A stretch of 56,817 nt of DNA from Deltaproteobacteria bacterium (GTDB lineage Bacteria; SAR324; XYD2-FULL-50-16): NCBI GenBank assembly GCA_018645005.1, contig JABGPJ010000088.1, positions 1 to 56,817 on the forward strand, in the 5' to 3' direction. The notes below the pieces were generated by a model. The model was not told where the DNA came from. It searched no databases and worked only from the letters and a program-made list of their open reading frames with translations. Positions 3,657 through 39,653 of the stretch are shown here, one piece after another. The number at the start of each line of letters is the position of its first letter. The first letter of the stretch is position 1. The position numbers were made by a program, and so were the translations under genes.

Positions 3657-3893
3657 TCAGTCACTTGTCACTTGAGATCCATTTTCCATATTCTCGGGCT
3701 CAGGATCATTCTCGTAGCGTCTGATTAATTCTTTATAAATTTTTCTCTTTTCAACTTCTGCCTGCCAGATGCTGTAAAACTTTCTGACAACTAACCATCC
3801 AAGCAACAGACATAAAAAAAACAGTGCTCCAATAATATACTGGATGAAATTGGATAATTCAATGAATTTATATATCTCTTTAAAAAAAGACAT
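3657..3893 (-). CDS. Small single-TM membrane protein, hypothetical
   Basis: 78 aa with hydrophobic segment IQYIIGALFFLCLLLGWLVV. Confidence 0.5.
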   Translation of the reverse strand: MSFFKEIYKFIELSNFIQYIIGALFFLCLLLGWLVVRKFYSIWQAEVEKRKIYKELIRRYENDPEPENMENGSQVTSD

Positions 3894-3936
3894 GGCGTCG
3901 GGCTTGAAATATTAGGCAAAATGGTTCTGATCCCTA

Positions 3937-3982
3937 AATGAAAAACAGAACCTCATATGGTTATTATCTCCTGTTTTTCATT
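3937..3982. repeat. Perfect 12-bp inverted repeat with 22-nt loop
   Basis: aatgaaaaacag ... ctgtttttcatt. Confidence 0.8.
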
Positions 3983-4220
3983 CTAAAATTATACCAAAAC
4001 GATTGCTATGTCCTTAGATATTATCAAATATCTTCTTGTTGTAAAGCGGGTCCCCAAAAAATATCGTTTATATTTCGCATTACATTCGATTTTTAGTATC
4101 AAATTAGTGCTCCAGTCTATGTTTGCATTAAAATATCGTTTTGAGGTCATATTTCGATAATTTTAGATTTTTTTCTGAAAAAACAAAAAAATCATAAAAT
4201 TGATTGCAAAAAGATCTAAG

Positions 4221-4248
4221 TGTGGTTATAACCTCAATTATAACCACA
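4221..4248. promoter_or_regulatory. Candidate dif-like Xer recombination site (11-6-11 perfect palindromic arms)
   Basis: TGTGGTTATAA CCTCAA TTATAACCACA; inner ATAA-N6-TTAT matches the dif core geometry; 75 bp upstream of a tyrosine recombinase gene. Confidence 0.65.
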
Positions 4249-4323
4249 TATTAAATTTTCTATTTAGCCCAATTTTTCTGTATTTGGAAAAAGGCACAAA
4301 CTCAAACAGTTATCACACACGCT

Positions 4324-5298
4324 ATGAAATCCGAAATTGTTCTCTCACCTTTATTACGTGAGAATCTACTGGATTCTTATGAAGGATCGAAATCAACAAA
4401 AAACGAAGAGATCTGGAGACAACTGGGTAACGTATCTGTGGGAGATGCTTTACATCTCTGGCTTGAGACATTGCGTCGGCCGACTCGTGGGAACTATCAT
4501 GCGGGATTCAAACGACTTGCTCAGCTTAATCTCGTGAATTTAGATTTAACACTGCAGCAATTCAGCCTAATTAATCATGAAACCGTTATTGATGAAGTAA
4601 AATTAATTCACCACTGGAGTGAAGCAACTCGACAGGCAAGAGCTGCAGCATACATTTCCTTCACTGGATTTTTGCAGCGACGCACTCAGGGAATTATTCA
4701 CAAAGCAGTTTCAAATAAAGAGGGTGCCAATAAGACGTTTTTCAAAGTCAGGGAAAAAGTGAAAACAAATGCCTTATCGCAGATCGAGACCCGTTATTTT
4801 TTCCAGGAGATTGAAAAAATAAATTCAAGGGATGCACTGATGGCGAAACTATTGTTGCAGGGGGGGAAACGTAAGGCTGAGGTACTGGCCTTAAATACGG
4901 AGCAGATTAATTTTGTCTCACAGACGATCACATTTATACAGACAAAAACCCGCGGCATGGAGAAAGTAACCGTTATCAACTATCCGCCTCATATCATGTC
5001 GGAATTAAAGGCGTATATCGGTCAGCGATCCGGTCTGGTCTTTATAACCCAAAACGGCCGTAAGATCTCGCCATTTCAAATCGATCGCAATTTCTTGAAA
5101 GCTGGCAAGCGGGCCCAGATTCCTTTTCGAGTTACCCCTCATGTATTACGTGTCACACTGGTGACCCGGTTGAAAGAGTTGAAAGTGCAGGATTCAGATA
5201 TTATGAAGATCACCGGACACGCTAATCCGGCTCAACTCTCAAGTTATGATAAGACAGAACTTTCGGATAATGCGACCCTGTATCACCATTTTGTTTGA
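4324..5298 (+). CDS. Tyrosine recombinase (Xer-like; resembles chlamydial plasmid integrase pGP7-D/pGP8-D)
   Basis: Catalytic set present: R in LLQGGKR, HVLR (HxxR), GHA (His), SSYDK (Tyr). Wording such as LQQFSLINHE, RAAAYISFTGFLQRRTQGI, AYIGQRSGLVFIT, ITGHA matches my memory of pGP8-D. Confidence 0.9.
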   Translation: MKSEIVLSPLLRENLLDSYEGSKSTKNEEIWRQLGNVSVGDALHLWLETLRRPTRGNYHAGFKRLAQLNLVNLDLTLQQFSLINHETVIDEVKLIHHWSEATRQARAAAYISFTGFLQRRTQGIIHKAVSNKEGANKTFFKVREKVKTNALSQIETRYFFQEIEKINSRDALMAKLLLQGGKRKAEVLALNTEQINFVSQTITFIQTKTRGMEKVTVINYPPHIMSELKAYIGQRSGLVFITQNGRKISPFQIDRNFLKAGKRAQIPFRVTPHVLRVTLVTRLKELKVQDSDIMKITGHANPAQLSSYDKTELSDNATLYHHFV

Positions 5299-5396
5299 GA
5301 TGGGAACTCGCTCAGAATACAATTTACCTTGTCCGCCAAGCAGGATCAATGAAGCAAATGAGATAAAAGGGGGAACGGGATGCAGACTTTGGTGTT

Positions 5397-5424
5397 GATC
5401 TGTGTTTGGGAATAAACACAGATC
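5397..5424. terminator. Perfect inverted repeat between convergent xer-like gene and rplC; probable transcription terminator hairpin
   Basis: gatctgtgttt gggaat aaacacagatc (11-6-11), between the ends of convergent genes at 5298 and 5445. Confidence 0.55.
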
Positions 5425-5444
5425 ATATTTGGGTTTGGTGATCT

Positions 5445-6083
5445 TTATTTTTTTGGTTTAGCAGTCTTCTTGACTTCTACCAACCGTCCATTGGGGCCGG
5501 GAATCGCTCCTTTGATCAGGATAACGTTCAGATCCTCTTTTATTTCTACAATCTCAAGCCGTTGAACTGTCACCTGGGCGTTTCCGTATTGGCCAGCCAT
5601 TTTTTTATTTTTAAAGATCTTGGCAGGTGTAGCACTCTGACCAATGGACCCAGTACCTCTGTTGAACCGATGGCCGTGTGCCGCAGGACCCCCCGAGAAA
5701 TTATGTCGTTTCATAACACCTGAAAAACCGTGACCTTTCGAGGTTCCGGTTACGTCAACCAGATCACCTACTGTAAACATGCTAAGATCGATGGTTTGAC
5801 CGACCTCGATTTCTTCATCATTCCCAGCGGCAAGCTCTCTTAAATAACGAGTTGGCGTCTGATCCTTGAAATGTCCCTTTAAAGGTTTAGTCACATTTCT
5901 CCGCTTTGCCTCTGTCAGTTCTTCAATACCAACCTGTACTGCTTTGTATCCGTCTTTTTCCACAGTTTTTTTCTGGATCACTTTGACAGGATCCGTCTTA
6001 ACAACCGTTACAGGCACACGATCGCCGTCTTCTGTGAAAAACTGTGTCATTCCTACTTTTTTACCAAATAAACCGTTTAGCAT
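5445..6083 (-). CDS. rplC: 50S ribosomal protein L3
   Basis: FGKKVGMTQFF, VTGTSKGHGFSGVMKRHNFSGGPAAHGHR, GSIGQSATPAKIFKNKKMAGQYGNAQVTVQRLEIV, VILIKGAIPGPNG. Confidence 0.98.
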   Translation of the reverse strand: MLNGLFGKKVGMTQFFTEDGDRVPVTVVKTDPVKVIQKKTVEKDGYKAVQVGIEELTEAKRRNVTKPLKGHFKDQTPTRYLRELAAGNDEEIEVGQTIDLSMFTVGDLVDVTGTSKGHGFSGVMKRHNFSGGPAAHGHRFNRGTGSIGQSATPAKIFKNKKMAGQYGNAQVTVQRLEIVEIKEDLNVILIKGAIPGPNGRLVEVKKTAKPKK

Positions 6084-6136: not shown

Positions 6137-6166
6137 ATTATATTCACTGTAGCGCTGTCGTGTCAA
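6137..6166 (-). promoter_or_regulatory. Predicted sigma70 promoter for rplC (TTGACA-N18-TATAAT)
   Basis: Minus strand reads TTGACA cgacagcgctacagtgaa TATAAT; the -10 lies about 54 bp upstream of the rplC start. Confidence 0.75.
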
Positions 6167-6258
6167 TAATATATGGAGCTAATATGGCTGAATATCAAAA
6201 TAAAGTTAAATCTGTGTCAGGAATTCCTCATTTATTGGATAATTGTCAGCTGTATCGT

Positions 6259-7002
6259 TCATTCGGTTATGAGCAGTCTCTGTTTAGCTGCGATTAAAAC
6301 GTCCAGCGCCAACCTGACGTATCTGAAGTTTCGCAAGAAGGTATTTTTGCTTTCTCCCTCTCTGCGTCCTATCCAGACGGTTGGGACCTGTTCCATTTTA
6401 AATCCAAGTTTTAAGGGCTTTACGGTTGTTTCGATGTAGATCTCATGCAGCACACCTTCCCAGTTGATGCGGCTGACCATGTCTTTCCGCAATACTTTAA
6501 ATCCGTACGTCAGATCTCCCAGCCTGGTTAAATATAGCAACCGGAATATATATTGGAATCCCCAATTAAGAATTAACTTGGTAGGGTCATAATTTTGAAA
6601 TCCACCCCCTTTTAACCATCGATTACCAATCACGCCATCGCAACCAGTCTCTTCGATTTTGCGTACCATACGATCCACGGCCTCCGGCTCTGTTTCAAGA
6701 TCGGCTGAGAGCAGCGCCACATAGTTACCGGTGGCCATCTCCATACCTTCTCTAATCGCCCAACCAACGCCGGGATTTTGCTGTTGCATATGCAATCTGA
6801 GAAAGTCATGTTTCTGATCTAATTGCTGGCAGATATCAATGCATTCAGCAGAGGACTTTGGTGAAATAACAAGGATAATTTCACTAATATATCCACGATC
6901 CAGCTTAATCAACCGCTCAATCGACTCATTCAGCGAAAAGGTTTCGGAGTAGACGGTGACAACGACAGAAAGGCGAATACTGCTTTGTTCTTTTGTTTCC
7001 AT
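6259..7002 (-). CDS. Family 2 glycosyltransferase (dolichol-phosphate mannosyltransferase-like)
   Basis: SVVVTVYSETFSLNESIERL, YVALLSADLETEPEAV, GVIGNRWLKGGGF. Confidence 0.88.
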   Translation of the reverse strand: METKEQSSIRLSVVVTVYSETFSLNESIERLIKLDRGYISEIILVISPKSSAECIDICQQLDQKHDFLRLHMQQQNPGVGWAIREGMEMATGNYVALLSADLETEPEAVDRMVRKIEETGCDGVIGNRWLKGGGFQNYDPTKLILNWGFQYIFRLLYLTRLGDLTYGFKVLRKDMVSRINWEGVLHEIYIETTVKPLKLGFKMEQVPTVWIGRREGESKNTFLRNFRYVRLALDVLIAAKQRLLITE

Positions 7003-7319
7003 TGAATACGGTTATGGTGATTCAGTAAATTGGGGCACTTGTTTATCGTAATTGACAAACAGAATCAATGGCCGCATGTTGGATCCTATCTCTTTTTTAG
7101 AGTAAGGACCGGTTCAAGCGCCTTCAAGGAGTTGCAGACAAAATGAGCAGGAAAAACGTATAAACCGCTTGATGTAAATACCCTATTTAGATAATTATTA
7201 AGATTCGGGATTAGTTGATAACCAGGAACAAATATCCGCGCTAAAAGGGGAATGTCCGTATCAATACCGCTTGCATCGGTACCTGAATTTAAATCTATAT
7301 TCTTGTCAGTGAATACGCA

Positions 7320-39031: not shown

Positions 39032-39121
39032 TGGCGGAGAGACGGGGATTCGAACCCCGGAAACAGTTTCCCATTTACACGCTTTCCAGGCGTGCTCCTT
39101 CATCCACTCGGACATCTCTCC
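39032..39121 (-). tRNA. tRNA-Ser(GGA)
   Basis: ggagagatgtccgagtggatgaaggagcacgcctGGAaagcgtg...ggttcgaatccccgtctctccgcca; long variable arm; CCA encoded. Confidence 0.96.
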
Positions 39122-39218
39122 GCGATGTCTGATGAAGCCACCGCAGTTTTTTTCAACAAAAGAGATACTACCTGGCAATTGGGCGCAGGTTGTACCCCAC
39201 TGAAGTGTTTTTCAAAAC

Positions 39219-39295
39219 TGGTACACCCGAAGGGATTTGAACCCCTGGCCCCCTGTTCCGCAAACAGGTGCTCTATCCAACTGAGCTACGGGTGC
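39219..39295 (-). tRNA. tRNA-Arg(GCG)
   Basis: gcacccgtagctcagttggatagagcacctgttt GCG gaacaggggg...ggttcaaatcccttcgggtgtacca; A20 in D-loop. Confidence 0.9.
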
Positions 39296-39317
39296 AGATT
39301 TTTTGATGATTGGTTAC

Positions 39318-39407
39318 TGGCGGAGAGACGGGGATTCGAACCCCGGGTACCCTTGCGAGTACAACAGATTAGCAATCTGCCCCGATCGGCCTCTCTGGCA
39401 TCTCTCC
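39318..39407 (-). tRNA. tRNA-Ser(GCT)
   Basis: ggagagatgccagagaggccgatcggggcagattGCTaatctg...cggggttcgaatccccgtctctccgcca. Confidence 0.95.
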
Positions 39408-39567
39408 GTTTTTGTTTTGCGACGCTACGACGTTTTCTTGAAAGTCTCTTCCTGTCAAACCCACTTTCTCAGCCAGACAGATCTTTAAGGCTGAGATAAG
39501 AAATTTAAATGAATCTAGCAGGAGCGCTGTAGGAAAAAATTCCGACTTGTCAAGGATGACAACATTC

Positions 39568-39653
39568 TGGAAGAGGGAGGGGGATTCGAACCCCCGATAC
39601 TTACGTATAACGGTTTTCAAGACCGCCGGATTCAACCACTCTCCCATCCCTCC
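39568..39653 (-). tRNA. tRNA-Ser(TGA)
   Basis: ggagggatgggagagtggttgaatccggcggtctTGAaaaccg...gggggttcgaatccccctccctcttcca. Confidence 0.94.

Follow-up and report, generated by a model that had tools for sequence, protein, structure and literature searches.

A candidate dif site and its single Xer-type recombinase form a conserved module in a family of SAR324 bacteria

The palindrome at positions 4221–4248 of the stretch of DNA analyzed here (the window, 56,817 nucleotides) is, at a probability we put at about 0.78, the dif site of a family of SAR324 bacteria, with the gene at 4324–5298 encoding its single Xer-type recombinase. The best reading of the comparative data is a single-recombinase Xer/dif module outside the families tested, which would function like XerH/difH or XerS/difSL. 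What characterizes this class was found at the locus: a conserved recombinase with a complete catalytic set and a cognate palindromic site. The features concerned are as follows.

4204–4209, plus strand: TTGCAA, the probable −35 box of the recombinase promoter; in 6 of 10 relatives a TATAA-like −10 box follows at 16–17 bp.
4221–4231, plus strand: left 11-bp arm TGTGGTTATAA, presumed recombinase half-site, the exact inverted repeat of 4238–4248 and kept in all ten family genomes.
4227–4232, plus strand: probable −10 box TATAAC, inside the left arm.
4232–4237, plus strand: 6-bp core CCTCAA, presumed strand-exchange region, 6 bp long in all ten family genomes.
4238–4248, plus strand: right 11-bp arm TTATAACCACA, presumed second half-site, conserved among relatives.
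4324–5298, plus strand: tyrosine recombinase of 324 aa (Phage_integrase, PF00589, 6e-21), with an orthologue in all ten family genomes.
5445–6083, minus strand: rplC (ribosomal protein L3), the convergent neighbor of the recombinase gene.

Reading 4221–4248 as TGTGGTTATAA-CCTCAA-TTATAACCACA confirms the perfect 11-6-11 inverted repeat of 28 bp that an earlier note on this DNA had described, ending 75 bp before the recombinase ATG at 4324. Its arm pattern has a single occurrence in the window (0 in 100 shuffles) and, even with up to three mismatches, is confined to one place in the genome assembly, a MAG of 3.28 Mb in 189 contigs at 68% completeness; one site per genome, as that note had expected, is also the rule in the family. 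An 11-bp perfect inverted repeat is not very rare in itself, and another with a spacer of 6 lies 1.2 kb away at 5397. The perfect repeat alone is thus not remarkable; the site at 4221–4248 has weight because relatives carry equal architecture. The second perfect palindrome (TGATCTGTGTTT..AAACACAGATCA, 5396–5425) stands between the convergent recombinase and rplC genes and is probably a bidirectional terminator; its TGATCTGTG stem recurs at the equivalent place in G004, G008, and G009 (loci L007, L004, and L005). The window also holds four clustered tRNA genes (Ser-GGA, Arg-GCG, Ser-GCT, and Ser-TGA) on the minus strand at 39032–39653.

Genomes of the class were numbered G000–G051. The family f1 consists of ten SAR324 genomes including that of the window, all MAG fragments, and the class has at least three further families (f2, f3, and f4). 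Every f1 genome carries ATAA-N6-TTAT in 11-bp arms upstream of its recombinase orthologue, 8–85 bp from the start codon, so both the resemblance of the inner arms to dif and the predicted conservation beside orthologous recombinases extend to 10 of 10 genomes. Arm symmetry across these sites is 8–11 of 11 positions. Among random 220-bp windows of the same contigs, a comparable site was present in 4 of 17,818 when at least 8 of 11 positions had to be symmetric and in 5 of 17,858 when at least 9 had to be, and a gene-blind de novo scan of six terminus contigs (1.3 Mb) returned the family sites and one other place, in G008. The arms co-vary between species (GTGG..CCAC in G000, GTAG..CTAC in G002). 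Asymmetric positions, one to three in each of seven relatives, fall mostly at arm positions 5–7; in canonical dif, symmetry is rare at positions 5 and 6, according to PMC2731167. In most f1 species the core reads TTGARG or its complement. Read toward the gene, it is CTTCAA or CCTCAA in G000, G001, and G004 and TTGAGG, TTGAAG, or TTGAAC in G008, G009, G002, G003, and G005, with the orientation flipping within one genus (G004 vs. G008 and G009); these flips perhaps arose by template switching across the symmetric arms. The module of site and gene is absent from the sister families of the class, where no consistent dif-like site was found beside the Xer gene and none beside rplC. G042 has a palindrome at C65:482 near a 394-aa integrase, a protein unlike the f1 recombinase.

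Orthologues of the recombinase in the nine other f1 genomes share 57%–78% identity, and the catalytic residues R183, K208, H273, R276, H299, and Y308 are invariant in the alignment of all ten; the other families of the class gave remote matches only. G001 encodes an additional copy with 52% identity (C481), which has a weak site only (6 of 11 positions symmetric) and a neighbor matching an HNH endonuclease, and is probably mobile. Scores against the curated models place the window recombinase outside the XerC, XerD, XerS, and XerA families, far below each cut-off: 47.6 bits for XerC (cut-off 335), 24.7 for XerD (330), 35 for XerS (267), and 75 for XerA (220). The top match by curated model, PDB profile, and fold is XerA, followed among the PDB profiles by XerH, whose match is weak (E = 1.8e-6) and lies mainly in the catalytic domain; the trees contained no full XerH sequences. 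The AlphaFold model (mean pLDDT 78.5, pTM 0.53) supports a tyrosine-recombinase fold for the predicted product; whole-chain TM-scores of ~0.4 single out no one family, and the main recombinase tree has long branches among which the clade is not placeable within the Xer families.

The gene next to the module is rplC; nine of the ten family genomes have no other L3 match, and in the tenth it is split over two contigs. Two module neighborhoods were seen, one in G000, G001, G004, and G008 and the other in G003, G005, and G007, with rplC adjacent in all of them. In G003 and G005 it lies on the side of the site, in the others downstream of the recombinase gene; since site and gene change orientation to rplC together, they appear to move as a unit. 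Where both genes can be placed in class genomes, rplC is apart from rplB, and its place beside the recombinase near the terminus in f1 is an odd location for a single-copy ribosomal gene. With this shared neighbor, the terminus position described below could partly be inherited synteny.

Contig skew places the site at or near the replication terminus in relatives with long contigs. In G003 the skew turns from plus to minus at 310 kb of a 577-kb contig with the site at 341 kb (permutation P < 0.0005), within the best 1% of skew-break positions; the corresponding values are 76 and 65 kb in G004 (P = 0.001) and 50 and 70 kb in G008 (P = 0.002). Skew of terminus polarity is therefore significant on the three longest contigs and consistent on two more, G005 and G007, which agree in direction and are not significant alone; the cumulative skew maximum of G007 is at 2822 and the site center at 2819. 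The break is not significant alone on the three shortest contigs. The skew-switch test that the earlier note proposed thus comes out in favor for G003, G004, and G008, and the window contig, with the site 4.2 kb from its end, is uninformative on this point. Ribosomal protein L2 is encoded on the G-rich strand in 6 of 7 genomes (G007 has the opposite skew), as would be expected of a leading strand, which supports a terminus over an origin. Offsets of 7–31 kb between site and skew break are not unusual, because PMC2731167 puts the distance from dif to the skew maximum in proteobacteria at 7.3 kb in the median and 21 kb at the third quartile, with much larger outliers.

Canonical XerC and XerD elsewhere in the genome would have spoken against a role in dimer resolution, and none was found in the near-complete G003, G005, and G007, whose best matches score 54–91 bits. 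With the XerD model, most f3 and f4 genomes have one match of ~220–260 bits and these three (97%–98% complete) have nothing above 79 bits; with the XerC model, the sister families score 195–226 bits versus at most 91 bits. Some other f1 members do have Xer matches of 140–240 bits, and two of these, from G000 and G002, get their highest scores as XerA or integron-type integrases. G008, a MAG with 6% contamination, contains two strong Xer-like recombinases in tandem (C14:118513–120356; XerD-model scores of 239 and 218 bits) that are possibly mobile. A second, unrelated Xer-like protein is present in 8 of 10 f1 genomes, missing from G003 and G006. This second family (L157 in G005, L158 in G000, L163 in G007, and L203 in G002) displays progressive loss of catalytic residues: the first catalytic arginine and the tyrosine are gone from the G007 copy and the histidine of HxxR from the G000 copy, and the G002 copy is interrupted. 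It could play a part in dimer resolution. Canonical dif without mismatch is absent from the six terminus contigs scanned.

The FtsK–KOPS convergence that the earlier note proposed to test for is not supported. The FtsK-gamma domain (PF09397) was detected in none of the class genomes searched and was present in 6 of 6 genomes of other phyla and 8 of 14 controls. An FtsK motor occurs in four f1 genomes only, in proteins of 563–591 aa that comprise an N-terminal segment, alpha, and the motor and end just past it; a protein search confirmed that FtsK is absent elsewhere in the class. G004 (C51) and G009 (C192) encode proteins of ~1,000 aa with an FtsK-type motor. KOPS-like octamers pointing toward the site have weak skews tied to G-richness (best 88 vs. 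38), none strongly polarized, and yielded no candidate. Neither the profile and protein searches of the class nor the octamer scan found a translocase or KOPS partner of the module. Given the absence of FtsK-gamma, dimer resolution, if real, would probably proceed without contact between XerD and the gamma domain, as reported for archaeal XerA.

The recombinase promoter and the site seem to overlap as well. The candidate boxes in the window are spaced as TTGCAA-17-TATAAC, which a generic promoter scan did not list, and a TTG-type −35 box at 16–17 bp in 6 of 10 relatives has a mean score above that of random positions (P ~ 0.001); the matching test on the reverse strand was not better than random. 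The promoter test was chosen post hoc, after the sequences had been seen, and is suggestive only. A −10 box inside the left arm suggests autoregulation, and the same overlap is an argument for reading the palindrome as an operator only, through which a dimeric protein, either the recombinase or a separate regulator, controls the gene with no recombination taking place. Symmetric arms would suit any homodimer. We consider this reading improbable: it leaves unexplained the terminus location, the loss of XerC/D within f1, the strict 6-bp core, and the presence of a dif-like ATAA-N6-TTAT beside a recombinase with all its catalytic residues. Autoregulation and recombination are, moreover, compatible.

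Phage contigs encode relatives of the recombinase with 57%, 50%, and 39% identity, and PHROG integrase families match it. The closest relative (L268), which groups within the chromosomal clade of the tree, has a head-morphogenesis gene as its neighbor; its recombinase gene (3923–4939) has a 12-bp palindrome with an 8-bp spacer at 3871–3902, 20 bp upstream. The spacing of that palindrome is Cre/lox-like, and the contig has a second integrase at 6149–7093. The other phage relatives and the second copy of G001 branch outside the chromosomal clade. Together, these relationships fit a host–phage exchange of the recombinase, for which the tree would accommodate either direction at its base. They also lend some credit to the idea that gene and site belong to a mobile element, as its integrase and attachment site, or are what is left of one that became fixed, particularly as the tree has phage or mobile members at its base. 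For the chromosomal copy, this alternative, which the earlier note had raised, is unsupported and somewhat less probable still than an operator: each family genome has one orthologue with a matching site, between housekeeping flanks and in two conserved neighborhoods, the chromosomal copies form one group save one phage capture, and viral contigs searched for exact copies of the family site pattern gave zero matches.

A hairpin in the recombinase transcript, acting as terminator, attenuator, or leader, is very unlikely, even though the repeat folds at −14 kcal/mol (z = −5.3) and was listed by a terminator scan, for no T tract follows it, it would overlie the predicted transcription start, and several asymmetric arm positions in relatives would be unpaired as RNA, as in recombinase half-sites. 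A functionless chance palindrome, for which one could cite the second 11-bp inverted repeat 1.2 kb away, is refuted by the 10 of 10 conservation and the near-uniqueness of the site.

The chromosome-dimer-resolution reading put forward in the earlier note is therefore the one we retain, supported by comparative evidence: conservation, single copy, a terminus-like location, and the lack of canonical XerC/XerD. One recombinase monomer would bind each of the two symmetric 11-bp arms, the bound recombinase would bring together the two sites of a dimeric chromosome or of two sister termini, and strand exchange within the 6-bp core would convert dimers to monomers. The module of site and gene at the terminus would have taken the place of XerC/XerD-dif, and recombinase bound to the left arm, with its −10 box, would limit its own synthesis. 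Binding, catalysis, dimer resolution, and autoregulation are all inferred from sequence. More tentatively, and with the odds against the scenario as a whole, the XerC/XerD–FtsK system may have been replaced by a phage-derived single recombinase whose dif is its own promoter-operator, with resolution proceeding without activation by FtsK, which is gamma-less or undetectable. The replacement should be traceable on a tree, because the sister families keep Xer proteins with canonical scores and phages carry relatives.

Dimer resolution by a single recombinase is known from streptococci and lactococci, some epsilon-proteobacteria, Legionellales, and archaea. SAR324, for which our literature search found no paper making a link to XerC, a dif site, or FtsK, would add a separate and largely uncultured lineage with a recombinase that falls in none of the curated Xer families tested. 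With FtsK nearly absent, the question arises of what sets the time and place of Xer recombination in bacteria when there is no translocase, which is approachable with the purified protein and the 28-bp site.

Each known system shares part of this arrangement. XerCD/dif has the same ATAA-N6-TTAT inner arms, length of 28 bp, and terminus location, whereas the SAR324 family has one recombinase, no FtsK-gamma, and no conserved XerD half-site TTATGTTAA; the f1 right arms are TTATAACCACA and its variants, not the conserved XerD arm TTATGTTAAAT. Archaeal XerA/dif (PMC5357621) likewise pairs a single recombinase, reported to be FtsK-independent, with a 28-bp site, but the SAR324 host is bacterial and its site is tied to the gene in all genomes seen. 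XerL/dif of Legionellales (PMC9765430), from which the SAR324 module is set apart by description and not by sequence, also combines a single recombinase missed by homology searches with perfectly symmetric long arms; in L. pneumophila, however, gene and site are >400 kb apart and the arms match no known Xer motif, whereas the SAR324 gene and site are neighbors and the inner arms resemble dif. XerS/difSL of streptococci and lactococci (PMC5357621) is similar in its single recombinase and adjacent site, forming one terminus module, but difSL has an 11-bp central region in 31 bp compared with 6 bp (in 10 of 10 genomes) in 28 bp, and XerS works with FtsK, which most SAR324 members do not have. XerH/difH of Helicobacter and Campylobacter, where the site of a single recombinase is usually by its gene and at the terminus (PMC2731167; PMC5241119), shares with SAR324 the single recombinase, the adjacent site, the central hexanucleotide, the low G+C content, and the terminus location. 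The difH consensus given in Table 2 of PMC2731167 is TTGAAAAC...TTTTCAAA, from which the SAR324 sites differ in having ATAA-N6-TTAT, GTGG/GTGT outer arms, and often perfect symmetry.
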